A DNA stretch of 64,000 nucleotides from Bartonella sp. CM31XJBT (GTDB taxonomy: Bacteria; Pseudomonadota; Alphaproteobacteria; Rhizobiales; Rhizobiaceae): contig NZ_JAQITD010000007.1 in assembly GCF_028618555.1 (NCBI RefSeq), positions 1-64,000 of the forward strand, given 5' to 3'. The notes under the pieces are model-generated. The model was not told the DNA's origin and did no database searches. It was given only the letters and a program-made list of their open reading frames with translations. Position numbers and translations under genes: made by a program. Positions 46,068 through 64,000 of the stretch are shown one piece after another; the first letter of the stretch is position 1, and the number at the start of each line of letters is the position of its first letter.

Positions 46068-47228
46068 CTAATCAATTTTTATATCCATAAATGCAGGTTC
46101 ACCATCTTTAATATAAGTAATATCAGGAGCATGTTTTACCCCCTCTGCTTCAAACACGAACTGTTCATCACTCACATCAAATCCTTGTTCCCTTAATTCT
46201 TGTTTTTTCTCCTCGACTAATTTTTTATGAAAAGCACGTTTTTGATTACACGTATTAGGGGATCTCACTCTGAAAAGCTGATAGTCCATGGCTATAGACC
46301 ACTTCTCAGCAACCCGTTCCAGTAGATCGTAACTGAACTTTCCTTCCCTTTTCACTTCTTGAGCGATCACCATCGCGCGTTCCAAATGGACTTTTTCAAT
46401 GGTTTCATCAAAGCCAAGCTTCTCCCCTGCCGTAAAACTTTCGTCATAAGAAGCTAAAGTCTCAACATCGCCCAGTAAGGCAAGAGCAGCAAGATGCAGC
46501 AAAGCATAAGGTGCGAGCTCTATGTCATCATCCGGTGCCCAAGATAAAGAGTCTTTTTCCCAAGGGGGAATACCATATTGAGAGCGAAACATTTCATGCA
46601 AAGAATCATCTTCCATTGTCCATTTTAAAGTTTTATCGAGTGCTTTCTTTAAAAGCTGGACGCTCACTTTTTCTTCAAAAATTTCCAATCCATTGGATAC
46701 AAAATTCATAAATACCGTTGGCACAACCCCAGAATTATGAGGATTAATCGTCTGACAAGCCGCCGCAAAAATACCGCTCATAATTAAAAGTCCGCGATCA
46801 AAAGGCGAAAACTCTTCCACTCGTTGCTCGTTATAAAGAAACTGCACTTCGCGATCTGGTAAAAAGAGGGTTGCCAAATAATCTCCCTTTCCCTCGATTT
46901 CCACCGACCATCCCAAGCTTTTTAAAAGCCCTGTTGCACTTTCTATCGTGAGAATTTCATCATCATCATAATCGGCAGAGAACTCTTTTTCCTTTAGTTG
47001 CAAACGCCTCTTCTGCACCACGGCTTCATCTTTCCAAAACTGCTGCGTTGCAAGATCATTTTCTTTAAGCACTCTTTCCAGCTCGCCTTTCACTTGGAAA
47101 TTCATTTTCATCCGTTTAAAGACAGAGATATAAAGAGCTAAAATAAGCATGATAATGATCATGCAAATAACAATCATCACCCAGAATCCGGGATCTAATA
47201 GAAATACGGCTATAGGATCACTGTTCAT
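46068..47228 (-). CDS. L-type protein of the M/S/L family, copy L1
   Basis: 386 residues. N-terminal S module: TM at about 14-36 (FWVMIVICMIIIMLILALYI), then SVFKRMKMNFQVKGELERVL. The soluble domain follows: ESATGLLKSLGWSVEIEGKG, LFLPDREVQFLYNEQ, IFAAACQTINPHNSG, LEIFEEKVSVQLLKKALDKT, YGIPPWEKD, LLGDVETLASYDESF, LERAMVIAQEV, NTCNQKRAFHKKLVEEKKQE, ITYIKDGEPAFMDI. No catalytic motif recognised. Close relative of L2 (54932). It starts 10 bp after an M gene, behind AGAGGGG. Confidence 0.75.
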   Translation of the reverse strand: MNSDPIAVFLLDPGFWVMIVICMIIIMLILALYISVFKRMKMNFQVKGELERVLKENDLATQQFWKDEAVVQKRRLQLKEKEFSADYDDDEILTIESATGLLKSLGWSVEIEGKGDYLATLFLPDREVQFLYNEQRVEEFSPFDRGLLIMSGIFAAACQTINPHNSGVVPTVFMNFVSNGLEIFEEKVSVQLLKKALDKTLKWTMEDDSLHEMFRSQYGIPPWEKDSLSWAPDDDIELAPYALLHLAALALLGDVETLASYDESFTAGEKLGFDETIEKVHLERAMVIAQEVKREGKFSYDLLERVAEKWSIAMDYQLFRVRSPNTCNQKRAFHKKLVEEKKQELREQGFDVSDEQFVFEAEGVKHAPDITYIKDGEPAFMDIKID

Positions 47229-47238
47229 TTTTCCCCTC

Positions 47239-47616
47239 TCAGTCTTTACAAAGCCCGTGCGACAGAGAGCTTATGTGCTCTCGCACCGAGATTGCTTCTT
47301 CTAGTTTCTGAATATTTTTTCGCAACTCACCCGTCACTTTGGTGCGAAGCCGTAACATAACCGGAATAAAAATAATAACACAAACCGTTATGATGTCCGT
47401 TGTTTTAAAGAGAACGGCATGCACAACATATTGCCACCCTGTCAGCTGCCAATTCAATACACCTGGTATTTCTAGAACCATTTTCCACATGATAATGAGA
47501 ACCGCAATAGCAAAGATAATTTTATAATCCTTTGCTGAGAGCAACGCTTGCTGGAGCGAAAAAGAATGCACTCCTTTATGCGTTTCTTGCTCTGATGCCC
47601 AATTTTGCTCCTTCAT
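47239..47616 (-). CDS. M-type membrane protein (M1)
   Basis: 125 residues: cytoplasmic VHSFSLQQALLSAKDYKIIF, TM IIFAIAVLIIMWKMVLEI, TM TDIITVCVIIFIPVMLRL, then KVTGELRKNIQKLEEAISVR. AGAGGGG lies before the ATG. Operon with L1. Confidence 0.72.
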   Translation of the reverse strand: MKEQNWASEQETHKGVHSFSLQQALLSAKDYKIIFAIAVLIIMWKMVLEIPGVLNWQLTGWQYVVHAVLFKTTDIITVCVIIFIPVMLRLRTKVTGELRKNIQKLEEAISVREHISSLSHGLCKD

Positions 47617-47658
47617 GTATTCCCCTCTCTCTTTGAAAAGACCTGTGCGACAGAGAGC

Positions 47659-47825
47659 TTATTTGCTATCACACAGAGATTGCCTCTTCTCGTTTCTAGA
47701 TCTTTTTTCCAATTTACGCATTATGATGATGCAAAACCCAAATACCACCGGAATAAAGAAAAGTACACAGGCCATTATGGTTTGCGTCATAATAAAAATG
47801 ATAATATTCGTGGTACCTTGCTACC
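47659..47825 (-). pseudogene. 5'-truncated M-type gene
   Basis: The frame TNIIIFIMTQTIMACVLFFI, PVVFGFCIIIMRKLEKRSR matches the second TM and basic tail of M proteins, but the first half is missing. Stop TAA at 47659. Confidence 0.5.
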
Positions 47826-48210
47826 CTCTTACCTTCCTCACATTGCAAACAATAAAGATTTTCAAACCACGCCAATCTGTAAACAATAGTCACAATTCAG
47901 CTTTTTCTTCCCAAAAATTCTCCTATTTTCAAGAAAATGACCCTGCAACCCCACTTCAATAGGATTCATTTCAAAGCTTGAATGAACAAGGCTCCTAAAA
48001 ATACGAAAACAACCCATATATCGCGACCACCTACAAGCAAAACCGTTCCTTCCTCACACCTCAAACGATAAAGTAAGTCCCAAGCACTCACTCTAGGCTC
48101 TAAACCCCAAGGGCTCTTATTCCCTTTTATCAATACTAATCCATAATCGGCTTTTCTTTCACTCAATGCCACCCTCAACACTGCTCCTTAGAGCAATGTT
48201 TACGGACACC

Positions 48211-48285
48211 TCATGAAAGAGCACCAAAACATATCAGAAGCAAAATGGTATAGAGAGCAATCCCTATAAAGGCTGAATCTCTCAT
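48211..48285 (-). pseudogene. S-type remnant
   Basis: MRDSAFIGIALYTILLLICF, GALS then stop: the TM of an S module without its basic tail. It lies where an S gene is expected between M-type genes. Confidence 0.35.
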
Positions 48286-48309
48286 AATTTCTTCATTATT
48301 TTTTCCCTC

Positions 48310-48885
48310 TCATGACTTCTCAAACGCTGTATCCTGTTCTTGCAAGACGTTTTTCAGTTCTTTTCTTAAACAGCGATACGTTCTCACCTGCTTAAAGACA
48401 CCATAATAAAGTTCTAAAATCATCATGGGAATACAAGCAACCCACAGTGTCACGAACAGAAGCACGAGACCGAATATTGTAACAAGAATATCACTCCATT
48501 TTTCTCTATCGCCTTTTTTATACCAATCCTTTTGATCGGTTATTTTACCCCGTTGCTGATCTATTCCTTTCAATTTCCGAATATTTTTTCTCAACAAAAA
48601 CCACAATATGATGCCGAGTATCAATATAACTGGGAACAAGACCAAAACACACACTATAATAACTTTCCAAAACGCATACAAAGAGAGAAAAAGAGGTGTA
48701 TCCCACCACCCTGTCCGTTCTCCATTGCTACCCAAGGATAGGAGAAAGAAAATCCTGTTCCATAGCTCAATGAGGGAGAGGAAACAAATGACAACATGCT
48801 CTCGCACAGAAAAATAATCTTTCCCAAAAAAATAGCGCAGTCCATTATAAAATGCTGAATAAAATTCTGACTTTTTCCCCTTCAT
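48310..48885 (-). CDS. M-S fusion membrane protein
   Basis: 191 residues. M part first: FGKDYFSVREHVVICFLSLI, two TMs, FLLRKNIRKLKGIDQQRG. S part next: TM TIFGLVLLFVTLWVACIPMM, LELYYGVFKQVRTYRCLRKE, LKNVLQEQD. The order M then S in one chain mirrors the gene order of separate M and S genes. GAAGAG before ATG. Confidence 0.7.
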   Translation of the reverse strand: MKGKKSEFYSAFYNGLRYFFGKDYFSVREHVVICFLSLIELWNRIFFLLSLGSNGERTGWWDTPLFLSLYAFWKVIIVCVLVLFPVILILGIILWFLLRKNIRKLKGIDQQRGKITDQKDWYKKGDREKWSDILVTIFGLVLLFVTLWVACIPMMILELYYGVFKQVRTYRCLRKELKNVLQEQDTAFEKS

Positions 48886-49179
48886 TGCTCTTCTTTTTTT
48901 TTATGAAAAATGCACTTCTTTATCTCATGCCCGCTCTTTTAAGAACCACGAAAAGTGCGATGCATGGCGCTTCCCTTATTTTCAATAAAAACCCCCAACT
49001 TTCTAAAAGCGCGGTTACTCTTCCAAATGATTAAGAGCATCCTCCTCATTACAAACAAAAATAGACTCTCTTCTTTGCCTGATGATTTTCCAACCATCCC
49101 CTCTTCTCTATGTCACGAGAGCTTCTAAACATTGCCTCTTACCCCTTACGATAGCTACAAAAGCGCCTTGTCACTCTCT
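48886..49179. other. Spacer between M-S genes
   Basis: 294 bases, pyrimidine-rich on the plus strand, without a supported gene. Confidence 0.4.
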
Positions 49180-49713
49180 TTATCTTACGCGTTTTAGTAG
49201 CCGTCTCATTCTACGATACTTTCTCACCTGCTTGAAAACAAAATAGTAAAATTCTAAAATGAGCATGACAACACCCGCAGGAAAAAAGACCTCTAGCAGA
49301 AATATCAACCAAAAGTATACGATAAAAAAACTGCTTATTTTTTCTCTATTGTTTTTTACTGGATTATTTTGTTGATCGGTTGTGTAACCCCGTTGCTGGA
49401 TAACCTCTTCTAACTGCTGAATCTTTTTTTTCAACAAATACGTTAAGATGAGATAAAGCACCAATAAAACAGGCATCAAGGCAACAACAACAACCATGAT
49501 GACTTCACGCAGCACAAAAAGCGCCAAAAGAGTGCTATCCTGCGATACACTCAACGACCACTTGGCTTCTAATGGGATCAAAAGAGCTTTATAACCTATC
49601 CCAATAAGGATAGAAATAAGACAAATAATCATATGATCTTTATAAGAACGAAATGATTTTCCAAAAAAAAGAGAGCACCGTTTGTTATAAAATGTGGAAT
49701 TTTCCCCCTTCAT
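49180..49713 (-). CDS. M-S fusion membrane protein
   Basis: 177 residues from MKGENSTFYNKR at 49713 (GGGAAGAG upstream; an upstream frame to 49776 is open). M part: FGKSFRSYKDHMIICLISIL, VLYLILTYLLKKKIQQLEEV. S part: FFIVYFWLIFLLEVFFPAGV, LILEFYYFVFKQVRKYRRMR, RLLKRVR. Confidence 0.7.
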   Translation of the reverse strand: MKGENSTFYNKRCSLFFGKSFRSYKDHMIICLISILIGIGYKALLIPLEAKWSLSVSQDSTLLALFVLREVIMVVVVALMPVLLVLYLILTYLLKKKIQQLEEVIQQRGYTTDQQNNPVKNNREKISSFFIVYFWLIFLLEVFFPAGVVMLILEFYYFVFKQVRKYRRMRRLLKRVR

Positions 49714-49774
49714 TTGCTCTTCCCTTTTATGCAACTGTTTGTCCCTAACTTTATAAGGACACGCATAATCTCTC

Positions 49775-50405
49775 AAAGCACAATTGCATCCATTATCGTC
49801 AAACAGAACACCCCAGAAAATACTCGTATTGCATATTTATGTTGCCAATACTTTTGCCAATTCACGTGCTTGTTTTAAAGAAATCTCTCAACACTTCCAA
49901 ACCAACGCGCATACACCCCATTTCATGAACATCCCCCATGAAAGGGATAACAATAGCGCTCCCATGAATATATCCCCTTACTATAAACTCTATCACTACC
50001 ATTGTTTCAATAAAAAATGTAATCCGGCACCATTCATATACGCCCCCTGCGGCCTCTACAATAGCCTTACCCTCCCTTGTAATACGCATAATCTCTCAAA
50101 GCACCATTGCGTCCATTGTCGTCAAACAGAATACCCAAAGAACACTCGTATTGCATATTCATGTTGCCAATACTTTTGCCAATTCACGTGCTTGTTTTAA
50201 AGAAACATCTCTCAACACTTGCAAACCACCGCGCATCACCCCCATTTCATAAACAGCCCCCATGAAGGGGATAACAATAGCGCTCCCATGAATATATCCC
50301 CTTACTATAAACTCTATCACTACCATTGTTTCAATAAAAAATGTAATCCGGCACCATTCATATACGCCCCCTGCGGCCTCTACAATAGCCTTACCCTCCC
50401 TTGCA
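49775..50405 (-). pseudogene. Tandem pair of a broken ORF, about 315 bp each
   Basis: CATAATCTCTCAAAGCAC begins both copies (about 49766 and 50088). On the minus strand each starts REGKAIVEAAGGVYEWCRIT and runs FIETMVVIEFIVRGYIHGSA, IVIPFMGDVHEMG before stops. The first copy keeps 75 codons (49862-50089). A more decayed copy is at about 9660-9780. I do not recognise the original. 50406-51019 is empty. Confidence 0.55.
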
Positions 50406-51019
50406 ACAAGCTACGCCATAACTCGTTCCTCAACACGGACAACCCCATTAGCCTAAGGCTCCTACGACAACCCCACCTCTTGCCCTAAAAACAAGCATAT
50501 CTAGCTTCTACGATAGCCTTTATCCCTTGAAAAGACAGAAGCATTTTTATTCTTTTCTCAATTGTTTTCGGACCCCCACTTAAGACATGAAAAAAGGAAC
50601 TTCCATTGATTTGCAAATGATCGCGCAATAAGAGCATTTGAAATGAGAAAATCTTACAACTTTCTTATTCCAATTAAAAAGGATCAATGATCATTCAAAA
50701 TATGACGATATATTCCATTTTTCATTGGGGATCTTGCAAGCCAATAGCTCAGAATATATTCATCAAAGCGCTTCTAAGACAGAGAGACAGCCGCAATTCT
50801 TGAGATCAAGCATTTTAATATTAATGAAAGCACTAACATTCCCTTGCAAGTTTGAGGTGTTGTTTTGTCAACAATCTTGTTAGCATGGATTGATTCTATA
50901 ACTATGCGATATCAGCACAATTGCTCTTTATAAACAGCATTGATACGCGCCATTTTACTCACACTTCTTTATAAGCCTTGCGTTATAGGCTTGTGGGGAA
51001 AAGATAAAGGAGAATCCTG

Positions 51020-51583
51020 TTGAATATAGCAATTATTTTGGGGTCTGTGCGTCAACCTTCCTTAACAAGAACTTTAGCCAATTATTTAGCGGATTGCCTC
51101 ATAAAGCGGGGTGCATCACTTCAGTGGGTTGATTTGCGTGAACAGCCCTTGCCGATGACAGATCCCGATTATCATCAGCAGGTAGAGGCTAATCCAAGTG
51201 CTGCGGTCCGTGAGTTTGTAAAAACCATTGCAGCGGCTGATGGCGTTATTCTAGCAAGCCCCGTTTATCAAGGGTCTTATTCGGGTGTTTTAAAAAATGC
51301 TCTTGATAATTTGAGCTATAATGCCTTTTTAAATAAACCTGTTGGGCTTATCTCTCATGGGAGTACGGCCAAAAAATGCGCACAACCGTGTGAACATTTA
51401 GTTCCGGTGGTGCACACGCTTTATGGTTATACACTCCAATGTCAAATCGCCTCTTCCAACGAAGATTTTTCCTCAGATGATGAAGGTCGTACTTGGAAAG
51501 TTACAAGTGAAGAGGTACAAACACGTTGTGAAAGACTTGCTGATGAAATGTACACATTTTTAAAGCAAAGAGGTGGGATTTAA
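51020..51583 (+). CDS. NAD(P)H-dependent FMN reductase
   Basis: 187 residues, flavodoxin-like fold: MNIAIILGSVRQPSLTRTLA (phosphate loop GSVR-x-x-S), WVDLREQPLPM, DGVILASPVYQGSYSGVLKN, ALDNLSYNAFLNKPVGLISH. SsuE/chromate-reductase class. It starts at TTG 51020 with AAGGAG upstream. The next gene begins 18 bp after its stop, so the two form a unit. The plus strand here interrupts the minus-strand membrane array. Confidence 0.88.
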   Translation: MNIAIILGSVRQPSLTRTLANYLADCLIKRGASLQWVDLREQPLPMTDPDYHQQVEANPSAAVREFVKTIAAADGVILASPVYQGSYSGVLKNALDNLSYNAFLNKPVGLISHGSTAKKCAQPCEHLVPVVHTLYGYTLQCQIASSNEDFSSDDEGRTWKVTSEEVQTRCERLADEMYTFLKQRGGI

Positions 51584-51601
51584 AGTAATAAGGGAGGGGG
51601 C

Positions 51602-52117
51602 ATGAAAAAAAAGGATGCGCACTATCGTTATTTAGTGGTAGGGGGTACAGGGATGCTAGCCCCTTTGTATCAATCACTAAAGCCGCAAGAAGTGATTATT
51701 GCTGCACGCTTTCTTTCCCATAAAGTCCAGCTTGAGGCATTGCACAACAAACAGTTGTGTGTGTCGTTGGATTATGATTGTGCGGCATCAAAGGCGCAAT
51801 TTTTAGAAGCTGTGAAGCAATGGCATGATCTAAAATATTGCATATTATGGATTCATTCGCCCGCCCATGCATTTTCTTGCGCATTAATTGAGCAGTTAGC
51901 TCTTTTACCTAAACCGCCATGTATTCTTCATATTTTTGGTTCCAACACGCATGATCAAATGATCCTCGAGTGCGCGCGCAAAAACAAGGTTGATTTTATC
52001 CCCATTCAATTAGGACAAAAAACAACGCCCAAAGGTTTACGATGGCTGACCCATAAGGAGATAAGCCAACAGGTACTGGATGCCATAAAAAAACATATGA
52101 ATAAACAAAACTTATGA
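51602..52117 (+). CDS. Small Rossmann-fold protein, SDR-like
   Basis: 171 residues. YRYLVVGGTGMLAPLYQSL at the N-terminus is a dinucleotide-binding Gly loop. AVKQWHDLKYCILWIHSPAH and CILHIFGSNTHD follow, as in short-chain dehydrogenase-like proteins, but no Tyr-x3-Lys catalytic pair is seen. GGGAGGGGG before ATG. Probably an NAD(P)-binding partner of the flavin reductase; substrate unknown. A fragment (GTGAAGCAATGGCATGATCT) recurs at 53625-53660. Confidence 0.7.
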   Translation: MKKKDAHYRYLVVGGTGMLAPLYQSLKPQEVIIAARFLSHKVQLEALHNKQLCVSLDYDCAASKAQFLEAVKQWHDLKYCILWIHSPAHAFSCALIEQLALLPKPPCILHIFGSNTHDQMILECARKNKVDFIPIQLGQKTTPKGLRWLTHKEISQQVLDAIKKHMNKQNL

Positions 52118-52332
52118 GCAACACCTATGGCTTTGCAAAGAAGCAGTGCCCCTTCAATCTCTATCCATACCCGAACACCCTCTTGAATAGCCCATACTCT
52201 CTTACATCATAGGCTTTGAGAACGAACAATCCCCCTCCCTTACGCCTCTAAACAGCATGCCTATATCAACAGCTCCAAAACCAAACGTTTTTCTAACCCT
52301 TCTCACACGGGCTTATCCCCCTCTCACAACCC

Positions 52333-53568
52333 TCACGGCTCTTGAGCAACCACACACCATTTTACAGTTTCACGCTTTTACGATTTTAAAAATTTACAGA
52401 AAACAACAAACTTCCGATCAACCGCCCCATTAAAGCCTATACAAGCCTATTACAAACCTATCATCAGCCTATTCATTGCCATCAACCCTTTTCCCCAACG
52501 CCCTCCATTACTCCATTCCAATTTTGACGCATTTCACAATCCAACCATCCTCCATTGGCACCTTTTCTCCCCAACCGCCCCACAACCATCACGGCTCTTG
52601 AGCAACCACACACCCTTTTACAGTTTCACGTTTTTACGATTTTGCAAATTCACAGAAAACTAGCAAACTGCCGATAAACCGCCCCATTAAAGCCTATCAC
52701 CAGCCTATTACAAACCTATCACCAGCCTATTCATTGCCATCAACCCTTTTCCCCCAACGCCCTCCATTCCCCCATTCCAATTTTGACGCATTGCACAATC
52801 CAACCATCCTCCATTGGCACCTTTTCTCCCCAACCGCCCCACAACCATCACGGCTCTTGAGCAACCACATACCCTTTTACAGTTTCACGCTTTTACGATT
52901 TTGCAAATTCACAGAAAACTAGCAAACTGCCGATAAACCGCCCCATTAAAGCCTATACAAGCCTATTACAAACCTATCATCAGCCTATTCATTGCCATCA
53001 GCCCTTTTCCCCCAACGCCCTCCATTACCCCATTCCTCCATTACCCCATTCCAATTTTGACGCATTGCACAATCCAACCATCCTCCATTGACACCTCTTC
53101 TCCCCAACCGCCCCACAACCATCACGGCTCTTGACCAACCACACACCCTTTTACAGTTTCACGTTTTTACGATTTTGCAAATTCACAGAAAACAAGCAAA
53201 CTGCCGATAAACCGCCCCATTAAAGCCTATACAAACCTATTACAAACCTACCATCAGCCTATTCATTGCCATCAGCCCTTTTCCCCCAACGCCCTCCATT
53301 CCCCCAACGCGCCCTCCATTACCCCATTCCAATTTTGACGCATTGCACAATCCAACCTTTATGCCTCCATTGGCACCTTTTCTCCCCAACCGCCCCACAA
53401 CCATCACGGCTCTTGAGCAACCACACGCCCTATTACAGTTTCACGTTTTTACGATTTTGCAAATTCACAGAAAACAACAAACTTCCGATCAACCGCCCCA
53501 TTAAAGCCTATACAAGCCTATTACAAACCTATCACCAGCCTATTCATTGCCATCAACCCTTTTCCCCA
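52333..53568. repeat. Tandem repeat of 257-282 bp, nearly five units
   Basis: Landmark CACGGCTCTTGA at 52333, 52590, 52849, 53123 and 53405. Each unit has TTTTACAGTTTCACG-TTTTTACGATTTT, a run of GCCTAT/ACAAACCTAT elements (itself a 9-10 bp repeat) and CCAACGCCCTCCATT. No gene. The unit contains the same TTTACG/TTTACAGAAA motif as 1-1015. 52118-52332 is similar C-rich spacer. Confidence 0.88.
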
Positions 53569-53690: not shown

Positions 53691-53867
53691 CTACATGCGC
53701 TTTTTCAGCGCTGCGTTTAATTGTTTGGTAACCTTGTAATACGAGATCAAACGCTTGATAAAAGAAATATACAGTGCCACAATGGGTATTGTTAAGAAAA
53801 AATCAAAAACACCCCCCAGCAGAATGATCAAAATCACCGTCCAAGCTGCCGCCATTTCGTAATGCAT
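53691..53867 (-). CDS. S-type small membrane protein
   Basis: 58 residues: MHYEMAAAWTVILIILLGGV, FDFFLTIPIVALYISFIKRL, ISYYKVTKQLNAALKKRM. One long TM then the basic S tail. AAGGGG seven bases before the ATG. It starts 15 bp after the frameshifted S-M gene. Confidence 0.65.
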   Translation of the reverse strand: MHYEMAAAWTVILIILLGGVFDFFLTIPIVALYISFIKRLISYYKVTKQLNAALKKRM

Positions 53868-53882
53868 TTTATCCCCTTCTCT

Positions 53883-54459
53883 TTATAAATTGATTGATTG
53901 GGTTGCTTCAGTCACTTCTTCCAACTGCTGAATCTTCTTTTTCAATCGATGGGTTAAAATTTCACGAAGGATCACAACAACAGGGATCGTTGCAAAAATA
54001 CATACCGATAAAAAAAACCAGAAAAGCAAGAGAATGGCAAGATATTCAAATCTGCTCTCATCTACCTCAGCAGCTATCCCTTTAGAGAAAATCACATAGA
54101 CATAAGCTTTGAAAAACATAATGATGAAAGAGAGGCATGCGTGGAGGATATAATCTTTGCGTGAAAAAGCGAGCCATTTTTTTTAACGAATAGGAACTTA
54201 TCTGTGTTTCTAGTGCTAAGTTTTGCGGCACTCTCTCTTTTTCTTTTCCGCTTTTTTCAAAGAAACAAAAACGCTGTGGATGTTCTTTCATCAAACGTCT
54301 TTGTTTTTTCACTCTGTAATAGAGCCTCAAACGCTTGATTAAAGAATAATAAGGCGCCACAATAATCATATTCACAAAAATGGCAAAAACTGTAACTGCA
54401 TTTAGAAGAAAATATCCAACCGGCAGAAACAAAATAAAAAACGCGATCTCACCCCTCAT
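53883..54459 (-). pseudogene. S-M fusion gene with a poly-A frameshift
   Basis: S part: MRGEIAFFILFLPVGYFLLN, IIVAPYYSLIKRLRLYYRVK. Then QISSYSLKK meets a run of eight A (T on plus, about 54178-54185), after which the M part continues one frame over: WLAFSRKDYILHACLSFIIM, FFKAYVYVIFSKG, FWFFLSVCIFATIPVVVILR, EILTHRLKKKIQQLEEV. The joined length is about 191 residues, like other fusions. The A run suggests slippage, so it may be phase-variable rather than dead. Confidence 0.65.
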
Positions 54460-54492: not shown

Positions 54493-54843
54493 TTATTTTT
54501 TTTTTAGTTTTTTCTTTATTTTTTCCAATTTACGCTCTTTAAAACGACAAATGCCCCACAAAATAGGAAGGGGTGTGAGAAGACAAAACCATATCAACAC
54601 TGGTAAGAGAAAAATAAGAGAACCAATTCCTTCCCATCTTGTCCATTGCAACGGCTGTACCAGAGATTTTGCACCCGCAGAAACTTCTAAAGCCATCATG
54701 ATAAGGCATGTACAAAACATGATAAAAAAGCGGCACCCTATTATTTTACACCTTCCCACCCCTTTACGCCTTTCCACTGAAGACACCATAAATTTTCTAA
54801 ATGAAAAGAAAGACTCTTCAAATGTTGCTTTTTTCTCCTGCAT
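54493..54843 (-). CDS. Divergent M-type membrane protein
   Basis: 116 residues: ATFEESFFSFRKFMVSSVER, TM CRFFIMFCTCLIMMALEV, TM GSLIFLLPVLIWFCLLTPLP, then a very basic tail FKERKLEKIKKKLKKK. M layout with little sequence identity to the others. GAGGGGAACA before ATG. Confidence 0.6.
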   Translation of the reverse strand: MQEKKATFEESFFSFRKFMVSSVERRKGVGRCKIIGCRFFIMFCTCLIMMALEVSAGAKSLVQPLQWTRWEGIGSLIFLLPVLIWFCLLTPLPILWGICRFKERKLEKIKKKLKKK

Positions 54844-56462: not shown

Positions 56463-56693
56463 TTTTTATCCCTCATTTGTTTCAATTTTCAAGCCATTTT
56501 CATGAACCGAAGCTTTCGTCCTCACAATGAATGAGGGTTCATCAATATCAAGCGCTTGTATCCCTCATCTTTTATAAAGACAATATCAAGGGTGCATTTT
56601 TTTTCCATCACCTTCAAACATCGCACGAATAGAAGGTCTCTCCTACAACGCATGAGAATATATAAAGACCAGTATTCATTTTCTGCCCTCCCT

Positions 56694-57059
56694 TCACGCG
56701 CTGTTTTGTTGAGAAGCGGTTTTTCTTCGCTGCCAGATTTCTTGATCCAACATATCGATCTTTTTTTTCAACAAACGCGTAAAGATGATACGGACCACAA
56801 AGGCAACAGGAATGAGTACAAAAATTAAATCTAATATAACCTGCACGATGCAAAAGAGAACTGTTATAACATCCCCTTCCCACCCCGCCAACTTCCACTC
56901 AAGCCACATGAGTAAGAAGAGAAGAGCCGTTCTTAAAGCTGCCACAATGAAAGCAATACAAAAGATGACTTTATAATTTTTGCTTGTCAAAAACGCTTCT
57001 TCAAGCGAAAAAGACCGTGGTTCTTTATCCAATGGTGAATTTTTTCCATTGCCCCTCAT
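56694..57059 (-). CDS. M-type membrane protein (M3)
   Basis: 121 residues, near-identical ends to M2 with a changed middle (LLFLLMWLEWKLAGWEGDVI, LDLIFVLIPVAFVVRIIFTR). Part of a 597-bp tandem duplication. A degenerate end of an L gene (YIKDG-like codons with stops) follows at about 56520-56640. Confidence 0.73.
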   Translation of the reverse strand: MRGNGKNSPLDKEPRSFSLEEAFLTSKNYKVIFCIAFIVAALRTALLFLLMWLEWKLAGWEGDVITVLFCIVQVILDLIFVLIPVAFVVRIIFTRLLKKKIDMLDQEIWQRRKTASQQNSA

Positions 57060-57290
57060 TTTTTATCCCTCATTTGTTTCAATTTCTAAGCCATTTTCAT
57101 GAACCGAAGCTTTCGTCCTCACAATGAATGAGAGTTCATCAATATCAAGCGCTTGTATCCTTCATCTTTTATAAAGACAATATCAAGAGTGCATTTTTTT
57201 TCCATCACCTTCAAACATCGCACGAATAGAAGGTCTCTCCTACAACGCATGAGAATATATAAAGACCAGTATTCATTTTCTGCCCGCCCT

Positions 57291-57647
57291 TCACGCGCTG
57301 TTTTGTTGGTAAGCGGTTTTTCTTCGCTGCCAGATTTCTTGATCCAACTTATCGATCTTTTTTTTCAACAAACGCGTAAAGATGATACGGACCACAAAGG
57401 CAACAGGAATGAGCACAAAAAGAAGCATTGATATAAAACCCAATATTAATGTTAAAATGAACAGGATATAATTCGACCACTCTGTCAAATCCCACTCAAA
57501 AAATATAACGAGTGCCACTTTAAAAGCGGTAATAATGAAAGCAATGCAAAAGATGACTTTATAATTTTTGCTTGTCAAAAACGCTTCTTCAAGCGAAAAA
57601 GACCGTAACTCTTCATACAATGGTGCATTTTTTCCATTGCCCCTCAT
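57291..57647 (-). CDS. M-type membrane protein (M4)
   Basis: 118 residues. It shares its first 40 and last 40 residues with M3, but the segment between the TMs differs (VIFFEWDLTEWSNYILFILT, LILGFISMLLFVLIPVAFVV). Followed by the same L-tail debris at about 57115-57240. Confidence 0.73.
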   Translation of the reverse strand: MRGNGKNAPLYEELRSFSLEEAFLTSKNYKVIFCIAFIITAFKVALVIFFEWDLTEWSNYILFILTLILGFISMLLFVLIPVAFVVRIIFTRLLKKKIDKLDQEIWQRRKTAYQQNSA

Positions 57648-57799
57648 TTTTTATCCCTCATTTGTTTCAATTTTCAAGCCATTTTCATGAACCGAAGCTT
57701 TCGTCCTCACAATGGATGAGGGTTCATCAATATCAAGCGTTTGTATCCCTCATCTTTTATAAAGACAATATCAGGGGTGCTTTTTTTTCATCAACTTCA

Positions 57800-58920
57800 A
57801 ACATCATGTTTTTATTTCCCCACAATATATTCTCTGCTGTCTTAAGGCTTCTCTTTTCTCGTCGATCAAATTTTCATAAAAATATCTTCTTCTATTGCAC
57901 AAATTTGGGTCTCTGACTCTAAAATTCTAAGTGCTCTTTTTATTTTCAGGAAGATAAGCTGCTTTCCAAAGAAGAAGCAAACGAGTGCAAGAAAATCGTA
58001 ACGAAGTTGCTTTGTCTTTATGACGATTTGAATCATCAACAACAAAACCGGCCCAAATTGATTTTTTCGATATTTTTTTCAAAGCCAAAACTTTCATCTT
58101 CCATAAAGCTTTTATGAGAAAGCTGCCAAATGTTAACATCAGCAAGCAATGTCAAAGCCCCAAGGGTGTGCAAGTAAAGAAGAAGCCACTTGAGAGATAG
58201 AACAATTTCCTTTCCCCAAGGTGGTGCCCCCATATTGAAAGCCCAAACACGCGGCCAAGATCACCCTCAGTCCCAGATCAACCTCAGTCATCGCCTTATC
58301 TCAAGCTTCCTCAAGCACACGACGTAAACGCCCTACGCTTACCTTTTCCTCAAAAATTTTCAATCTCTTTTCCTTAAAACCCACCCCTTTGCCTCAATGC
58401 CTCGTTGTCAATCTGGCACCCCCCCAAAATGATAAAGCCCCAAAATGATAAGGATTAATTATTTGGCAAGCCGCCGCATGAATACCAGCGTCTCTCACAA
58501 TTCCATAACCAAATTGCACAAAACCTTTTTCATCCAGAGAGAGAGAAACTGTCCTTAGCGGTCTCGTAAATAAATAACGGTCTCGTAAATAAATAGATAT
58601 CTCTCTTTTCTTTCAATTTCCCCCCTCCACCCCAAGCTCTTTAAAAGCACTATTACACTTTCCATAGAGCAAAACGTCTTGATCAAAAACTTAAGCTTTT
58701 GGCGCGTCTTCTCTATGCGTCTTGCCTCTCCACCTGCAAGAAAATGGGCTCTTCTTCCCCAAACACCAGAATATCTTTTGCTTCAAGTATCGATTTTTCG
58801 CTCTCAATATCGCTTGGTAAGACAGATTTTTATGCTTGATAAAAGAAAATAAGTTACAAGATTTTCACTCTTTAAGAAAACACCAACAGCAAGTAAAATC
58901 CAAGAGCAGCCCCTCTTCAC
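57800..58920 (-). pseudogene. Decayed L-type gene, left copy
   Basis: Pieces in several frames match L1/L2: AVGVFLKSENLVTYFLLSSI, SMESVIVLLKSLG-like, IHAAACQIINPYHFG, KIFEEKVSVGRLRRVLEEA, MGAPPWGKE, LGALTLLADVNIWQLSHKSF and RVRDPNLCNRRRYFYENLID. No continuous frame. Confidence 0.7.
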
Positions 58921-59139
58921 TTTCCCCTTAAAAGCTCACAAGAATCCCCACTCAAGCAAGAATCCCCACTCAAGCAAGAGCACCTCTCAAGCAAAAGCAC
59001 CTCTCAAGCAAAAGCACCAATTCTTTAAAAAACACGACACAAATATAAAAAAGCATAAAACGAGAAGTACACCCATGCACCTTAATGAACAAGTCAAAAG
59101 CAAGGCTCAACAAAAGCCTCTCTTCACTTTTTCCCCTCG
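58921..59139. other. Spacer with short repeats
   Basis: CACTCAAGCAAGAATCCC and CTCTCAAGCAAAAGCAC units repeat near 58950-59010. The stretch recurs in the right copy at about 62520-62690. Confidence 0.6.
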
Positions 59140-59435
59140 CTCATTTTCCCCTCGCTCATTTTCCCCTCGCTCACTTTCCCTCGCTCACTTTCCCTCGCTC
59201 ACTTTCCCTCGCTCACTTTCCCTCGCTCACTTTCCCTCGCTCACTTTCCCTCGCTCACTTTCCCTCGCTCACTTTCCCTCGCTCATTTTTCTCTCGCTCA
59301 CTTTCCCTCGCTCACTTTCCCCTCGCTCACTTTCCCTCGCTCATTTTTCTCTCGCTCACTTTCCCTCGCTCATTTTCCCCTCGCTCACTTTCCCCTCGCT
59401 CACTTTCCCTTCGCTCACTTTCCCCTCGCTCACAT
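59140..59435. repeat. 14/15-bp VNTR (CCCTCGCTCACTTTC)
   Basis: About twenty units, a mixture of 14-bp (CCCTCGCTCACTTT) and 15-bp (CCCCTCGCTCACTTT) forms. On the minus strand the 15-bp units encode VSEGK and form the C-terminus of the M gene at 59356. The right copy at 62700-62745 has only three units. Confidence 0.92.
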
Positions 59436-59730
59436 CGTATAATATGACGGGAGCTCCTTTCTGCTCAACCTCTTCTTCTAATTGCCGTATCATTTTGTTC
59501 AACTGACGGGTCACGATAAAACGCATAATAAAAACAATCGGTAAGAATAAAAAAGTACAGGCAAGCATCCATGCTAGTGGCTCGAATACGACAAGAGAAA
59601 CAAAGTCCTCCCCTCTCCATATCTTAACGACAGCAGTTATAACTATTGGAGCAGTCACTATAACCGTAGAAAGATAGAATATTTTTTTATAGTCTTGCCA
59701 AACAAGAGAAAGCTGTTTTTTATCAAACAT
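59356..59730 (-). CDS. M-type membrane protein with SEGKV repeat tail (M5)
   Basis: 124 residues: MFDKKQLSLVWQDYKKIFYL, TM STVIVTAPIVITAVVKIW, TM MLACTFLFLPIVFIMRFI, tail VTRQLNKMIRQLEEEVEQKG, then about five VSEGK repeats. The reading frame ends where a 14-bp unit shifts it to a TGA. It follows the S gene by 12 bp. Confidence 0.75.
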   Translation of the reverse strand: MFDKKQLSLVWQDYKKIFYLSTVIVTAPIVITAVVKIWRGEDFVSLVVFEPLAWMLACTFLFLPIVFIMRFIVTRQLNKMIRQLEEEVEQKGAPVILYDVSEGKVSEGKVSEGKVSEGKMSEGK

Positions 59731-59742
59731 TCTGCTGCTTTT

Positions 59743-59940
59743 TTATTTTGGGGAGATCTGTTTTAAGGCAATATCGCGTTCACTCAGCACGCATTTCAGT
59801 TCCTTTTTCACGCGGCAATACAACCGCGCACGCTTGATAAACAGGTAATAAATGACAACGATTGGCACCCATATTAAAACACTTAAGAGCGTAAAGAACA
59901 GGAAAGAAATGGCTATTAATGTTATAAGACTACTCGTCAT
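59743..59940 (-). CDS. S-type small membrane protein (S5)
   Basis: 65 residues: MTSSLITLIAISFLFFTLLS, VLIWVPIVVIYYLFIKRARL, YCRVKKELKCVLSERDIALK. ATG 59940 has AAGGGGG upstream. It overlaps the end of the S-M gene by about 11 bases, indicating coupled translation. Confidence 0.73.
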   Translation of the reverse strand: MTSSLITLIAISFLFFTLLSVLIWVPIVVIYYLFIKRARLYCRVKKELKCVLSERDIALKQISPK

Positions 59941-60487
59941 TTTGTCCCCCTTCCACATTCTGCATACGCATTGCCTGATCGCGTTGTTGTATCGCTTCTT
60001 CCAATTGTTGAAGTATTTTGTTCAATTTTCTCGTTAACTTTATGCACATGATCCCAATGATCGGAAAAAAGAGAAGAACCCCTAACCATATAAGGCTCAA
60101 CAGCTGCATGATAAAGGCAACATTATCATTTTTCCACCATACAAAATTTGCGATAGAGAAAGCAGATTGCAAAACAGAAAAGAGAATAAGGATAAAAAAG
60201 ATTATTTTACATTCTTTTGAATAAAAAGGCAGAGATTCTTTGAAGTTAAGAAAGCGCATTTTCGCATCAAGGGTCTTATGGGCGAGATTGTGTCTTTTCA
60301 TTTCTCCCCGATCATTGCGCAATTGTTGTATGGCTTGCTTTTGTTGCGTCGTACTCTTTTTCAAGCCTTGAGCGAGTTTAAAAGATAACCTGATATATTT
60401 GATCAACAGGTAAGGAAGCCTAACAATGACCATAACCATTAAAATGGCAATGACGATGCCCCCTAAAAAAGCTAAATGTTGCATCAT
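59930..60487 (-). CDS. S-M fusion membrane protein
   Basis: 185 residues. S part: LAFLGGIVIAILMVMVIVRL, PYLLIKYIRLSFKLAQGLKK, coiled linker QKQAIQQLRNDRGEMKRHNL. M part: MRFLNFKESLPFYSKECKII, FFILILFSVLQSAFSIANFV, VLLFFPIIGIMCIKLTRKLN, KILQQLEEAIQQRDQAM. Confidence 0.75.
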   Translation of the reverse strand: MMQHLAFLGGIVIAILMVMVIVRLPYLLIKYIRLSFKLAQGLKKSTTQQKQAIQQLRNDRGEMKRHNLAHKTLDAKMRFLNFKESLPFYSKECKIIFFILILFSVLQSAFSIANFVWWKNDNVAFIMQLLSLIWLGVLLFFPIIGIMCIKLTRKLNKILQQLEEAIQQRDQAMRMQNVEGGQNDE

Positions 60488-60544
60488 AATGCTCCCTTTT
60501 TTTCCCTATCGTATTGATGTGAAATCATCATTTTTATTCTCTTC

Positions 60545-61093
60545 TCAAGCAAATGTTTCTAATTCCTTTACTGTTTCTTGCACGCCATACTGAAGGAAAC
60601 TATGGAGAATTAAAATGACAGGTAAAGAAACAACAATACATGCCCAGACCCAAAACAGCAGTTTCATGACAAAATCAATAATGTGAAGCACTATAGGCGC
60701 GTAATTGTGCAAAAAAACCGCAGATTTTGGAAGAAAAGCTGAAAAAACGACAAAACCTGTGCAAAGTGCAACCATAACGAAGGCGATAGAAAAGATCATA
60801 AAATAATCTTTTTTTGAGAGAAGCAAAGATTCTTGAAAAGAAAAGGCACGCAACTGTGTTGTAAGAACTGTCCTCTGTCCTCTACCCTCTACCTGATAAT
60901 GCCCTAAATTCTGCGCTGCACCCTTTTTTAATTTTCGCTGCGTCACCAATAACAAGATTGTCCGTTTTATCAACGAATAATAAAGTGCAACGATTGTCAC
61001 CACGGTAGAAAGGAATACCATAAAAATTGCAGAACAAATAAAAATTGTCGTCCCTACGGCAGTCAACATTCCAATGATTAAAGAAGCGGTCAC
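60545..61093 (-). CDS. S-M fusion membrane protein
   Basis: 182 residues. S part: TIFICSAIFMVFLSTVVTIV, ALYYSLIKRTILLLVTQRKL. M part: QLRAFSFQESLLLSKKDYFM, IFSIAFVMVALCTGFVVFSA, WACIVVSLPVILILHSFLQY, GVQETVKELETFA. Confidence 0.74.
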   Translation of the reverse strand: MTASLIIGMLTAVGTTIFICSAIFMVFLSTVVTIVALYYSLIKRTILLLVTQRKLKKGAAQNLGHYQVEGRGQRTVLTTQLRAFSFQESLLLSKKDYFMIFSIAFVMVALCTGFVVFSAFLPKSAVFLHNYAPIVLHIIDFVMKLLFWVWACIVVSLPVILILHSFLQYGVQETVKELETFA

Positions 61094-61101
61094 TTTCCCC
61101 C

Positions 61102-61620
61102 CTATTGTCTTCTGTTAAGAGATTGGTTGTCTAGCTGTTGCTGCTCTGGCAAGGTTTCCCATTGTAGCATCATTTCCTTCACATCCCGTTTAAATACGGC
61201 GTTAAAGACAAAAAAGAGCGGACAAAAACCAAAAAGAACGCCAAAAATCATTTGCGGTAAGAGACATAAAAAAGCCCAAACACTATTCCACCCCGCATCA
61301 AGAACATGCTGAATTATAGGATTTTGGAAAGGGTGTTTAAGACTTTCCTGAAGTCTTTCCTGAAGACTTTCTTGTTTCATTTGTCCCAGTGCTTGGAGCT
61401 GTTCTTTGGATATAACGTGAAAAAATTCCAAAGGATCCATATAGGCAGACGCGGAAAAAAGCACCAACAAGAGGATAGCCAAACAACAAATGATGATATA
61501 ATCGCTTGTTGAAAGCATCATCCATTTTTTGAAAGTTGCCGATTGATTCAACACTGGCTGTGATACAAAAGCCTTATCTCCCTTATGGGCAAATTGGTGT
61601 TGTGATTTATCTTCGATCAT
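61102..61620 (-). CDS. Long M-type membrane protein
   Basis: 172 residues: FKKWMMLSTSDYIIICCLAI, LLLVLFSASAYMDPLEFFHV, then an insert with MKQESLQERLQESLKHPFQN between the TMs, TM WAFLCLLPQMIFGVLFGFCP, LFFVFNAVFKRDVKEMMLQW. The 20 bp to the next gene include CAATAGGGGGG. First gene of this sub-array. Confidence 0.68.
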   Translation of the reverse strand: MIEDKSQHQFAHKGDKAFVSQPVLNQSATFKKWMMLSTSDYIIICCLAILLLVLFSASAYMDPLEFFHVISKEQLQALGQMKQESLQERLQESLKHPFQNPIIQHVLDAGWNSVWAFLCLLPQMIFGVLFGFCPLFFVFNAVFKRDVKEMMLQWETLPEQQQLDNQSLNRRQ

Positions 61621-61796
61621 ACGGATACTCCCCCACTTCTAAAATTCCCACTCTTCAATATTTGATAGCACGCCACCAGCGCGGTAAATTCGCTTAGCAC
61701 CCTTCTCAGAGTAATGCAAGCACTATAAATCCCCTCTACGTATTTTATTCATTTGCCCTATACGCGCTTATACATGAAGCACTATACGTGAGGCGC

Positions 61797-62507
61797 TTAC
61801 AAGCCAAAACACCCCTTTCCCCAAGGTGGTGCCCCCATATTGAAAGCCAAGCACGCTGCCAAGATCACCCTCAGTCCCAGATCAACCTCAGTCATTGCCT
61901 CATCTAAAGCTTCCTCAAGCACACGACGTAAACGCCCTACGCTTACCTTTTCCTCAAAAATTTTCAATCTCTTTTCCTTAAAACCCACCCCTTTGCCTCA
62001 ATGCCTCGTTGTCAATCTGGCCCCCCCAAAATGATAAAGCCCCAAAATGATAAGGATTAATTATTTGGCAAGCCGCCGCATGAATACCAGCGTCTCTCAC
62101 AATTCCATAACCAAATTGCACAAAACCTTTTTCATCCAGAGAGAGAGAGAAACTGTCCTTAGCGGTCTCGTAAATAAATAGATGTCCCTCTTTTCTTTCA
62201 ATTTTCCCCCTCCACCCCAAGCTCTTTAAAAGCACTATTACACTTTCCATGGAGCAAAACGTCTTGATCAAAAACTTAAAGCTTTTGGCGCGTCTTCTTT
62301 ATGCGTCTTACCTCTCCACCTGCAAAAAAATGGGCTCTTCTTCCCCAAACACCAGAATATCTTTTGCTTTAAGTATAGATTTTTCGCTCTCAATATCGCT
62401 TGGTAAAACACATTTTTATGCTTGATAAAAAGACAATAAGTTACAAGATTTTCTCTCTTTAAGAAAACACCAACAGCAAGTAAAATCCAAGAGCAGCCCC
62501 TCTTCAC
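61797..62507 (-). pseudogene. Decayed L-type gene, right copy
   Basis: Near-identical to 58220-58900: SWILLAVGVFLKRENLVTYC, ESVIVLLKSLGWRGKIERKE, IHAAACQIINPYHFGALSFW, KIFEEKVSVGRLRRVLEEAL in different frames. The part matching 57800-58200 is missing. 61621-61796 is spacer. Confidence 0.7.
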
Positions 62508-62699
62508 TTTCCCCTTAAAAGCTCACAAGAATCCCACTCAAACAAAAGTACCACTCAAGCAAGAGCACCTCTCAAGCAAAAGCACCAATTCTTTAAAAAA
62601 CACGACACAAATATAAAAAAGCATAAAACGAGAAGTACACCCATGCACCTTAATGAACAAGTCAAAAGCAAGGCTCAACAAAAGCCTCTCTTCACTTTT

Positions 62700-62745
62700 T
62701 CCCCTCGCTCACTTTCCCTCGCTCACTTTCCCCTCGCTCACATCG
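62700..62745. repeat. Short copy of the 14/15-bp VNTR
   Basis: Three CCCTCGCTCACTTT-type units at the position equivalent to 59140-59435. Confidence 0.85.
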
Positions 62746-63038
62746 TATAATATGACGGGAGCTCCTTTCTGCTCAACCTCTTCTTCTAATTGCCGTATCA
62801 TTTTGTTCAACTGACGGGTCACGATAAAACGCATAATAAAAACAATCGGTAAGAATAAAAAAACACAGGCAAGCATCCATGCTAGTGGCTCGAATACGAC
62901 AAGAGAAACAAAGTCCTGCCCTCTCCATATTTTAACGACAACAGTTATAACTATTGGAGCAGTCGCCATGACCGTAGAAAGATAGAATATTTTTTTATAG
63001 TCTTGCCAAACAAGAGAAAGCTGTTTTTTATCAAACAT
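62709..63038 (-). CDS. M-type membrane protein (M6), duplicate of M5
   Basis: 109 residues, differing from M5 in a handful of positions (ATAPIVITVVVKIWRGQDF, LACVFLFLPIVFIMRFIVTR) and ending after two SEGK repeats. Confidence 0.75.
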   Translation of the reverse strand: MFDKKQLSLVWQDYKKIFYLSTVMATAPIVITVVVKIWRGQDFVSLVVFEPLAWMLACVFLFLPIVFIMRFIVTRQLNKMIRQLEEEVEQKGAPVILYDVSEGKVSEGK

Positions 63039-63050
63039 TCTGCTGCTTTT

Positions 63051-63248
63051 TTATTTTTGGGAGATCTGTTTTAAGGCAATATCGCGTTCATTCAGCACGC
63101 ATTTCAGTTCCTTTTTCACGCGACAATAAAGCCTCGCACGCTTGATAAACAAGTAACAAATTGTCCAAACTGGCACCCACAATAAAATATTTACGATCAT
63201 ATATAACAGGAAAGAAATGGCTATTAATGTTATAAGACTACCCGTCAT
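63051..63248 (-). CDS. S-type small membrane protein (S6), duplicate of S5
   Basis: 65 residues: MTGSLITLIAISFLLYMIVN, ILLWVPVWTICYLFIKRARL, YCRVKKELKCVLNERDIALK. The second half of the TM has changed from S5 while the basic tail is identical. GGAGG before ATG 63248, one base after the stop of the S-M gene. Confidence 0.73.
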   Translation of the reverse strand: MTGSLITLIAISFLLYMIVNILLWVPVWTICYLFIKRARLYCRVKKELKCVLNERDIALKQISQK

Positions 63249-63249
63249 T

Positions 63250-63807
63250 TTATCCTCCACGCCCATTCTGCATACGAATTGCCTGATCGCGTTGTTTTAT
63301 TGCTTCTTCCAATTGTGGAAGTATTTTGTTCAATTTTCTTGTTAACTTTATGCACATCACCCAAATGATCGGAAAAAAGAAAAGAAATCCAATCCATAGA
63401 GAAGCGTTCAACAGTGACATGATCCCGCTGATCATATCACTCTTCCACCATACCAAATTTGCGATAGAGCAAGCAGCCCGCAAAACAGAAAAGAGGACAA
63501 AGATAAAAAAGATTATTTTACATTCTTTTGAAGAAAGAGGCAGAGATTCTTTGAAGTTAAGAAAGCGCATTTTCGCATCAAGGGTCTTATGCACAAGATT
63601 GTGTCTTTTCATTTCTCCCTGATCATTGCGCAATTGTTGTATGGCTTGTTTTTGTTGCATCGTACTCTTTTTCAAGTCTTGAGCGATTTTAAAAGATAAC
63701 CTCATATGCTTGATCAACAGGTAAGGAAGCCTGACCATAACTATAGCCATTAAAATGGCAATGATGGTGATCCCTAAAACAGCCAAACATTTTATAACAA
63801 TAGTCAC
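63250..63807 (-). CDS. S-M fusion membrane protein, duplicate of 59930
   Basis: 185 residues: CLAVLGITIIAILMAIVMVR, LPYLLIKHMRLSFKIAQDLK, KSTMQQKQAIQQLRNDQGEM, MRFLNFKESLPLSSKECKII, WVMCIKLTRKLNKILPQLEE. Differences from the left copy cluster in the loop between the M-part TMs. Confidence 0.75.
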   Translation of the reverse strand: MTIVIKCLAVLGITIIAILMAIVMVRLPYLLIKHMRLSFKIAQDLKKSTMQQKQAIQQLRNDQGEMKRHNLVHKTLDAKMRFLNFKESLPLSSKECKIIFFIFVLFSVLRAACSIANLVWWKSDMISGIMSLLNASLWIGFLFFFPIIWVMCIKLTRKLNKILPQLEEAIKQRDQAIRMQNGRGG

Positions 63808-63855
63808 TTTTCCCCCCTATCGCATTGATATGAAATCATCATTTTTATCCTCTGC

Positions 63856-64000
63856 TCAAACAAATGTTTCTAACCTCTTCATTGTTTTTTCCACGCCATA
63901 CTGAAGGAAACTATGGAGAATTAAAATGACAGGTAAAAAAACAATAATCCATAGCCAGAACCACAACAGCAGCTGCATGACAAACATGCCAACCGTAAAC
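63856..64000 (-). CDS. S-M fusion membrane protein, 3' part (cut by window end)
   Basis: 48 codons: FTVGMFVMQLLLWFWLWIIV, FLPVILILHSFLQYGVEKTM, KRLETFV. It matches the end of the 60545 gene, so the segmental duplication continues past the window. Confidence 0.7.
   Translation of the reverse strand, partial: FTVGMFVMQLLLWFWLWIIVFLPVILILHSFLQYGVEKTMKRLETFV

Follow-up and report, generated by a model that had tools for sequence, protein, structure and literature searches.

We analyzed a 64,000-nucleotide stretch of DNA from Bartonella sp. CM31XJBT (contig NZ_JAQITD010000007.1, positions 1 to 64,000; hereafter, the window), whose source genome comprises 2.35 Mb in 85 contigs. Its minus strand carries a long array of genes for putative membrane proteins. 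The array is built from two small modules, M and S, and from a larger protein, L, in which an S module is joined to further domains. It had been described in a sequence-only reading, and the open reading frames (ORFs) lie on the minus strand where that reading had placed them. We built seed hidden Markov models (HMMs) from six M copies and four S copies and then iterated them. The seed HMMs recovered almost every remaining M and S module in the array, including those within S-M and M-S fusion genes. The stretch that starts at 44 kb and ends 4 kb beyond the window holds 15 full and 3 partial M modules, 12 S modules, 2 full L genes, and 6 L pieces. By hydropathy, S has one helix and M has mostly two, and in most copies the last helix is followed by basic residues. 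By the positive-inside rule, this would place the C termini of M and S in the cytoplasm.

From its low-coordinate end, the array begins with L1 (46068..47228), which has an S anchor (transmembrane [TM] helix at about residues 19 to 37, by hydropathy), a DUF6990 domain, and a truncated PD-(D/E)XK toxin-like tail ending in ...PDITYIKDGEPAFMDIKID. An M module with two TM helices and a basic tail (47239..47616) lies 10 bp upstream of L1. It is followed by an M remnant (47662..47820; M HMM, E = 1.4e-7), two fused M-S genes (48310..48885 and 49180..49713; M and S HMMs), and an S module (53694..53882; S HMM, 2.3e-8). Next are an M half (53883..54182; M HMM, 1.6e-13) and an S half (54082..54459; S HMM, 1.8e-9) that belong together. 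They had been read as one S-M gene, which is a single frame in six related loci (L041 to L044, L046, and L050) but is split into two frames here. Beyond it are an M module (54493..54843; seed profile E = 0.019, iterated 3e-24), L2 (54932..56083; again S anchor, DUF6990, and truncated toxin-like tail), and an M module 13 bp upstream of L2 (56097..56462; M HMM). This M gene and the next two (56694..57059 and 57291..57647; M HMM) form a 597-bp tandem repeat with two 231-bp spacers between them. A decayed L copy (57729..58680; L pieces, 65% DNA identity to L2) precedes an M module whose C-terminal end lies inside a 14-bp repeat array (59356..59730; M HMM), an S module (59743..59958; S HMM), two fused S-M genes (59930..60487 and 60545..61093; M and S HMMs), and a long form of M (61102..61620; seed profile 3e-5, iterated 4e-22).

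The sequence-only reading had ended the array at 61620. However, a second decayed L copy (61812..62286; L pieces) is followed by a duplicate block with an M module (62709..63038; M HMM), an S module (63051..63266; S HMM), a fused S-M gene (63250..63807; both HMMs), and the end of a further S-M frame (63859..64000). That frame continues past the window (contig C67, 63859-64506), and an M frame then runs to C67:64952. The block (62698-64996) duplicates 59389-61679 (83%), and 61814-62741 duplicates 58209-59174 (93%); the array thus holds two recent duplications and extends beyond the window end. L debris had been proposed in several places, among them the gaps between the tandem M genes. It is confirmed at 57.7-58.7 kb and 61.8-62.3 kb, but an L profile had no match in the window's two 231-bp spacers; the equivalent spacer of B. 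grahamii has a weak L-tail match (L041 9479-9547; E = 2e-3). Promoter and terminator scans of the array did no better than on shuffled sequence, and operon borders were left uncalled. Long tandem repeats with 274-bp and 86-bp units lie in or beside the array (52325-53567 and 43694-44523, respectively).

M and S alternate more regularly than expected by chance. We scanned 27 loci, the window and 26 fetched stretches (two from one genome), with the iterated profiles, and compared each order with 2000 within-run shuffles. Of the window's 28 steps, 22 alternate (shuffled mean, 14.4; fraction at or above the observed value, 0.002). Across the 26 loci with runs of at least four modules, 297 of 359 steps do (shuffled mean, 190.8; standard deviation, 9.0; maximum, 220), although these steps are not independent events because the loci share ancestry. 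Furthermore, single frames contain S and M in 76 cases, S and L in 19, and L and M in 1, the last being an S-DUF6990-M fusion in L076 that is also counted in the other two classes. The proposals that M and S alternate, that they behave as partners, and that L docks through an S module of its own (true of most copies) are supported, and module order is alike rather than random in other species. A predicted structure of an S-M fusion has three long helices (predicted local distance difference test [pLDDT], 66; predicted TM score [pTM], 0.37) and is uninformative about the M-S interface.

No known family had been recognized in the array, but L belongs to Pfam family DUF6990 (PF22499). L2 scored 72.3 bits (E = 6.3e-20) and L1 scored 65.1 bits (1.1e-17), against a curated cut-off of 27. 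No paper in the literature searched names DUF6990 or PF22499. The domain occurs in 36 of 71 Bartonella genomes, in two main settings: the L genes of the array, and proteins of ~600 to 890 residues with up to four tandem DUF6990 domains, which are encoded downstream of FhaB/CdiA-type genes. A 40-row tree (one empty row was dropped) placed L's DUF6990 domain with domain 4 of the four-domain (4xDUF6990) protein at 100/99 support. The tree tool flagged long branches elsewhere in the tree, and sequence identity agrees with the grouping: L2 is 50 to 52% identical to domain 4 and 16 to 24% identical to domains 1 to 3. In one relative (L077:8504-10294), the linker between S and DUF6990 is expanded by an ~10-residue tandem repeat, giving a 596-residue L that is possibly length variable.

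The positions of DUF6990 genes suggest what the domain might do. Twenty Bartonella loci were kept, and in 15 of them a PD-(D/E)XK-type toxin ORF ends 0 to 12 bp before the DUF6990 ORF. Ten of these toxin ORFs are in longer frames (206 residues and more), and five are 117-residue orphan pieces. The remaining loci comprise two with no scored toxin frame (L117 and L126) and three array loci (L128, L129, and L132). On pSymB of Sinorhizobium meliloti, a 187-amino-acid, single-domain DUF6990 protein (LZK74_19680; E = 2.8e-62) is encoded by a gene that overlaps the end of a hemagglutinin-repeat gene by 4 bp. The C terminus of the hemagglutinin-repeat protein reads RPDIVYQ..GIIEVKTGD and was not named by Pfam. 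Judged from gene order, this is the classical place of an immunity gene for contact-dependent inhibition (CDI). L had been proposed to be an effector or adaptor. Instead, its domain is one that occupies the immunity-gene position of FhaB/CdiA loci, and its tail is a truncated piece of toxin.

A profile of 170 positions, built from eight toxin C termini (seven from Bartonella and one from S. meliloti), connects the tail to these toxins. Among 7905 frames of the 27 loci, it matched 30 at E values of 0.0011 or less (best, 2e-11), and all 30 are L frames. The 12 weaker matches listed, 3 to L frames and 9 to others, all have E values of at least 0.02. Four L proteins scored 19.4 to 41.6 bits, with L1 highest. 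By comparison, the best score among 8000 shuffled-tail copies, 4715 of which were reported, was 12.2 bits. An earlier single-sequence search for the tail as a wider family within this genome had found only L copies, and the toxins were found later by profile. We are highly confident of the module and domain homologies assigned to the array and to L.

The toxin match in L stops partway. We collected 43 L ORFs from 39 stretches (several genes were counted in two stretches). The toxin match was present in 41 of the 43, and none passed model position 77 of 170. In 40, the ORF ends no more than 14 residues from the (D/E)XK strand. The exceptions are the L gene of L043, which is cut by the stretch end; that of L058 (genome G012), which stops at position 46; and that of L076, which has M instead of the tail. 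The motif residues are PD..DIK in L1 and PH..DVE in L2 (PH and DVE replacing PD and (D/E)XK), and other copies have DVS, DIN, or DVK. In PD-(D/E)XK nucleases, the (D/E)XK strand is followed by a helix with a conserved Q. That helix is missing from L, so catalysis is not expected and the tail should be noncatalytic.

The toxin itself is a predicted nuclease of the polymorphic-toxin kind. The toxin profile also hits the C-terminal portion of the type VI secretion system effector RhsA (5e-9). RhsA has a toxin that is predicted to be a DNase and against which its own immunity protein acts (PMC8765631). For the sequences in the toxin alignment, all Pfam matches were below the cut-offs, among them VRR_NUC and PDDEXK_1. 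In a structural model of L2, the tail forms a helix and four short strands (pLDDT, 59 to 88 over residues 321 to 370). VIA-align found 53 chains with Z scores of at least 2 for this model and none of at least 5. Eight of the 10 listed rows that start at or after residue 313 are chains that we take to be of PD-(D/E)XK type (four R2 endonucleases, two of XisH type, PspGI, and Can2); their Z scores of 2.2 to 3.1 are weak and offer only a hint. Taking the S module, DUF6990, and the toxin-like tail together, L is therefore predicted to be a membrane anchor, an immunity-type domain, and a truncated toxin half in one protein.

L is also separated from its putative target. By eye, there is no FhaB/CdiA gene among the listed ORFs of the window and the rest of contig C67. 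L is thus not the CdiI of a pair, and we call it orphan and immunity-like for that reason. An L-type tail, intact or decayed, occurs in 25 genomes and an unbroken full-length toxin end occurs in 10, with 6 having both. G012, with its shorter L tail, also has a toxin, and G046 has only a broken toxin match. L or its debris occurs without an unbroken toxin of this type in 19 of 26 genomes, some of which are drafts that may hide one; toxins without an L tail were found in 3 genomes.

L resembles CdiA-CT/CdiI pairs of the PD-(D/E)XK type (PMC9086364) in having the domain encoded directly behind FhaB/CdiA C termini in Bartonella and S. meliloti. However, it is away from any FhaB/CdiA gene, carries a membrane anchor, and contains part of a toxin. 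Orphan cdiA-CT/cdiI modules (PMC9086364) similarly consist of adjacent toxin and immunity pieces displaced from cdiA, but L is one protein in the order immunity-toxin, in which the toxin breaks off near the (D/E)XK strand and an anchor has been added.

This order raises an alternative. A deletion in an array of orphan cassettes would be expected to leave an immunity gene fused to the front of the next toxin, and L might be such a by-product, a decaying passenger with no immunity role. In agreement, a full-length L frame is found in 13 of 27 loci and is lacking from 14, the motif residues vary (as in PH..DVE of L2), and two L ORFs have lost all or part of the tail. However, L is under purifying selection, as the sequence-only reading had proposed. 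Mean pairwise dN/dS (the ratio of nonsynonymous to synonymous substitution rates) is 0.26 for L2 (45 pairs) and 0.35 for L1 (10 pairs). By part, the values for L2 and L1, respectively, are 0.21 and 0.31 in DUF6990, 0.34 and 0.42 in the tail, and 0.35 and 0.34 in S, so that every part measured is constrained, the tail included. Furthermore, L has many invariant columns, and most copies are truncated at a similar point. We consider the by-product explanation improbable. L is constrained in some lineages and lost in others, a pattern that could be expected of orphan immunity genes.

A second alternative concerns the whole array, which might be a polyimmunity locus. M and S would then be membrane immunity proteins against membrane-targeting toxins, like two-helix CdiI proteins, and L would be one cytoplasm-facing member. 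Two-TM families of CdiI type and homogeneous polyimmunity loci have been described (PMC3482391), and the portions of that paper used here do not contain the word Bartonella. In favor of this reading, the array consists of tandem paralogs without toxin genes, copies are often decayed, and an immunity-type domain is fused to S. The 4xDUF6990 protein has tandem domains of immunity type, an architecture known from polyimmunity proteins. There are several L copies without toxins, but most of the genes encode M and S, which form paired membrane modules of no known immunity family and have no demonstrated link to immunity. We scanned 29 stretches around toxin or tandem-DUF6990 genes, one of which is an array contig. 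The other 28, some of which overlap, had no credible M or S match. An M match near a tandem-DUF6990 gene in L066 (E = 0.0019) lacked a hydrophobic stretch and was judged false. M was thus not found beside a cdiA toxin end, where the gene for a CdiI of the two-TM type would lie, and the tie of M and S to immunity is by fusion only (S to L, and S-DUF6990-M in L076). M and S also alternate in the manner of fixed partners, not of immunity genes that can stand in for one another.

Lone M-S pairs adjoin housekeeping genes, which likewise argues against a polyimmunity locus. Outside the array, the only matches in the window to the M and S profiles with E values below 0.04 are two overlapping genes, M and S, which follow purK on the plus strand (15266..15806; 15266-15640 and 15633-15806). 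A similar overlapping pair lies near genes read as dapB and gpmA in a relative (L103, 8284-8852). The pair is therefore not confined to the array. We regard the polyimmunity explanation as unlikely.

A compact polyimmunity cluster does exist elsewhere in the window's own genome. L054:2-2509 and L055:2-2990 each have an LHH nuclease end, then SUKH-like genes (three and four, respectively), and then tandem DUF6990. LHH and DUF6990 were assigned by Pfam, and one SUKH-like gene was tested per locus. The same layout was seen by eye in a relative (L067).

Profile searches gave little else for these proteins. Apart from DUF6990, no credible match was obtained in Pfam, NCBIfam, or PHROGs for ten array proteins (both L proteins, M proteins, and fusions containing S). 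Low-E matches of M and S, such as those to SUR7, F0F1 subunit B, and MSC_0882, were below curated cut-offs, and we took them to be typical of short hydrophobic proteins. PADLOC had no match for the two L proteins and one M tested. One S-M fusion had two weak PADLOC matches (best, ZorA, E = 0.0019); none of the four had a credible match to a known anti-phage defense protein. The DUF6990 and M profiles had no match among Protein Data Bank sequences.

The array lies near a phage-derived replication origin. On one side are a phage primase/helicase gene (34964..37438, plus strand), the anchor of the conserved locus, and genes for a primosomal protein (33099-34169, plus strand) and a YqaJ exonuclease (30341-31162, minus strand). 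Together (30.3-37.4 kb), they match the Bartonella run-off replication (ROR) module, which is reported from all genomes examined in PMC3610622. The array starts 8.6 kb and ends ~27.5 kb from the helicase gene, and a phrog_21451 gene (41036..41605, plus strand) flanks it on the ROR side. Among the 26 other loci, some of whose stretches end earlier, the flanks include phrog_15385 in 25, phrog_21451 in 13, and the helicase in 8. As judged from these flanks, the array sits at one conserved ROR-adjacent place, where two genomes retain only remnants of it. In B. grahamii, the island with the ROR genes is BgGI 15, listed as "Phage cluster III" (PMC2697382). The array lies beside the ROR exonuclease and helicase genes, but the accounts in PMC2697382 and PMC3610622, in the portions used here, do not describe the array, its modules, or L. 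Likewise, literature on Bartonella contact-dependent systems, CdiA, and immunity mentions no such array in titles and abstract beginnings, among the matches listed. A cdiA gene with variable repeats is listed in desert-rodent Bartonella (PMC11466379).

The conserved place of the array, with ROR on one side and phrog_15385/endolysin on the other, would also suit a third alternative. M and S might be membrane proteins derived from a phage or a gene transfer agent (GTA) and tied to run-off replication, with roles such as superinfection exclusion, a holin-like function, or uptake control, and L might have been added later. However, no PHROG matched any of the ten array proteins tested at an E value below 0.006, L had no match in 50,697 phage records, and no relative turned up when viral contigs were scanned for L and the 4xDUF6990 protein. 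M was found in 41 and S in 39 of 71 Bartonella genomes, and M-S pairs occur away from ROR too. A core component of the Bartonella GTA and ROR system would be present in all Bartonella, as the ROR genes are in those examined (PMC3610622), whereas M was not found in 30 of 71 genomes. M is thus not a core ROR/GTA part, and we doubt strongly that this alternative is correct.

Several other features of the neighborhood were noted. The helicase frame has a long Thr/Gln/Pro-rich repeat stretch ahead of its Toprim part, and two hydrophobic, repeat-like frames lie just behind it on the opposite strand (37429-38666), one of which (37980-38666) had no Pfam match. We rejected the idea that the flanking phage proteins are paralogs bracketing the array (BLAST E = 0.41). 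Past the window, a gene for a YopJ-family acetyltransferase adjoins the array (L052:4806-5765, which is C67:68806-69765; PF03421, 5e-75). By eye, a related genome has four such genes in a row (L076:15681-19999), the last cut by the stretch end. The closest named relatives of L2 are in B. grahamii (90% identity) and in ten further Bartonella records. We take these eleven to be mostly rodent associated.

With the alternatives weighed, we lean toward reading L as a membrane-tethered orphan CDI immunity protein. To cross the inner membrane, CdiA toxins use specific membrane proteins, and cdi loci commonly carry orphan immunity genes (PMC9086364). The S module would be a single-helix anchor, with the rest of L in the cytoplasm. 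L would sit on the cytoplasmic side of the inner membrane, at the point where CdiA-CT toxins leave their inner-membrane receptor. Its DUF6990 domain, of the kind encoded directly behind the PD-(D/E)XK nuclease toxins of FhaB/CdiA, could then bind an incoming nuclease ahead of DNA contact. The C-terminal ~65 residues, apparently the front half of such a nuclease that stops at the (D/E)XK strand or shortly beyond it, might serve as an internal placeholder or decoy. M, with two helices, and S, with one, would be partner modules that form a membrane scaffold; that this scaffold serves L is tentative, and we put it at somewhat less than an even chance.

Several observations weigh against reading L as an immunity protein in this way. 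Toxin neutralization by any DUF6990 protein is a prediction. M and S are present in all 27 loci (two as remnants), yet about half of these have no full-length L. With no credible M or S in the 28 stretches around toxin or tandem-DUF6990 genes, any role in immunity of the array as a whole is conjectural. The match of L2 to the toxin profile is weak (19.4 bits; E = 4e-4). Nor is the tail indispensable, because the L gene of L076 has none and that of G012 ends before the (D/E)XK strand. L groups with domain 4 of the tandem protein, whereas domain 1 is nearest the toxin. An AlphaFold2 model of L2 from 16 sequences had a mean pLDDT of 48, and its DUF6990 core was unusable. DUF6990 is rare outside Bartonella (2 other genomes of 398 in a phylum sample and 1 other of 397 in an order sample), and the five non-Bartonella cases are uneven. 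S. meliloti is the one with direct adjacency. Two are looser: an Agrobacterium tumefaciens pLN1 DUF6990 fragment is 1.4 kb behind a DUF637 protein, and in one order-level genome DUF6990 is 1.7 kb downstream of a DUF637/PT-VENN piece. Two class-level genomes have no CdiA neighbor in the stretch read.

The location of the array adds a further possibility. The phage-derived ROR origin over-replicates neighboring DNA, and GTA particles are enriched in DNA from the vicinity of ROR (PMC2697382 and PMC6899734). Lying near this origin, the array should be readily packaged and easily shared among kin. In its fullest form, the model would be a GTA-shared immunity array, in which M and S form an inner-membrane platform and an L immunity domain preloaded with a dead toxin half intercepts CdiA nucleases. 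All of this together is a long shot. If it were true, the array would be among the most readily packaged and transferred DNA, and kin immunity would spread through the GTA.

These findings provide a lead to the function of Pfam family DUF6990 and offer an example of an immunity-type domain that is predicted to be both membrane tethered and fused to a truncated toxin. They may also link an array of membrane protein genes in Bartonella to competition among bacteria instead of to host interaction. With the array next to the origin supplying the GTA, it also becomes testable whether kin immunity spreads through GTA particles.

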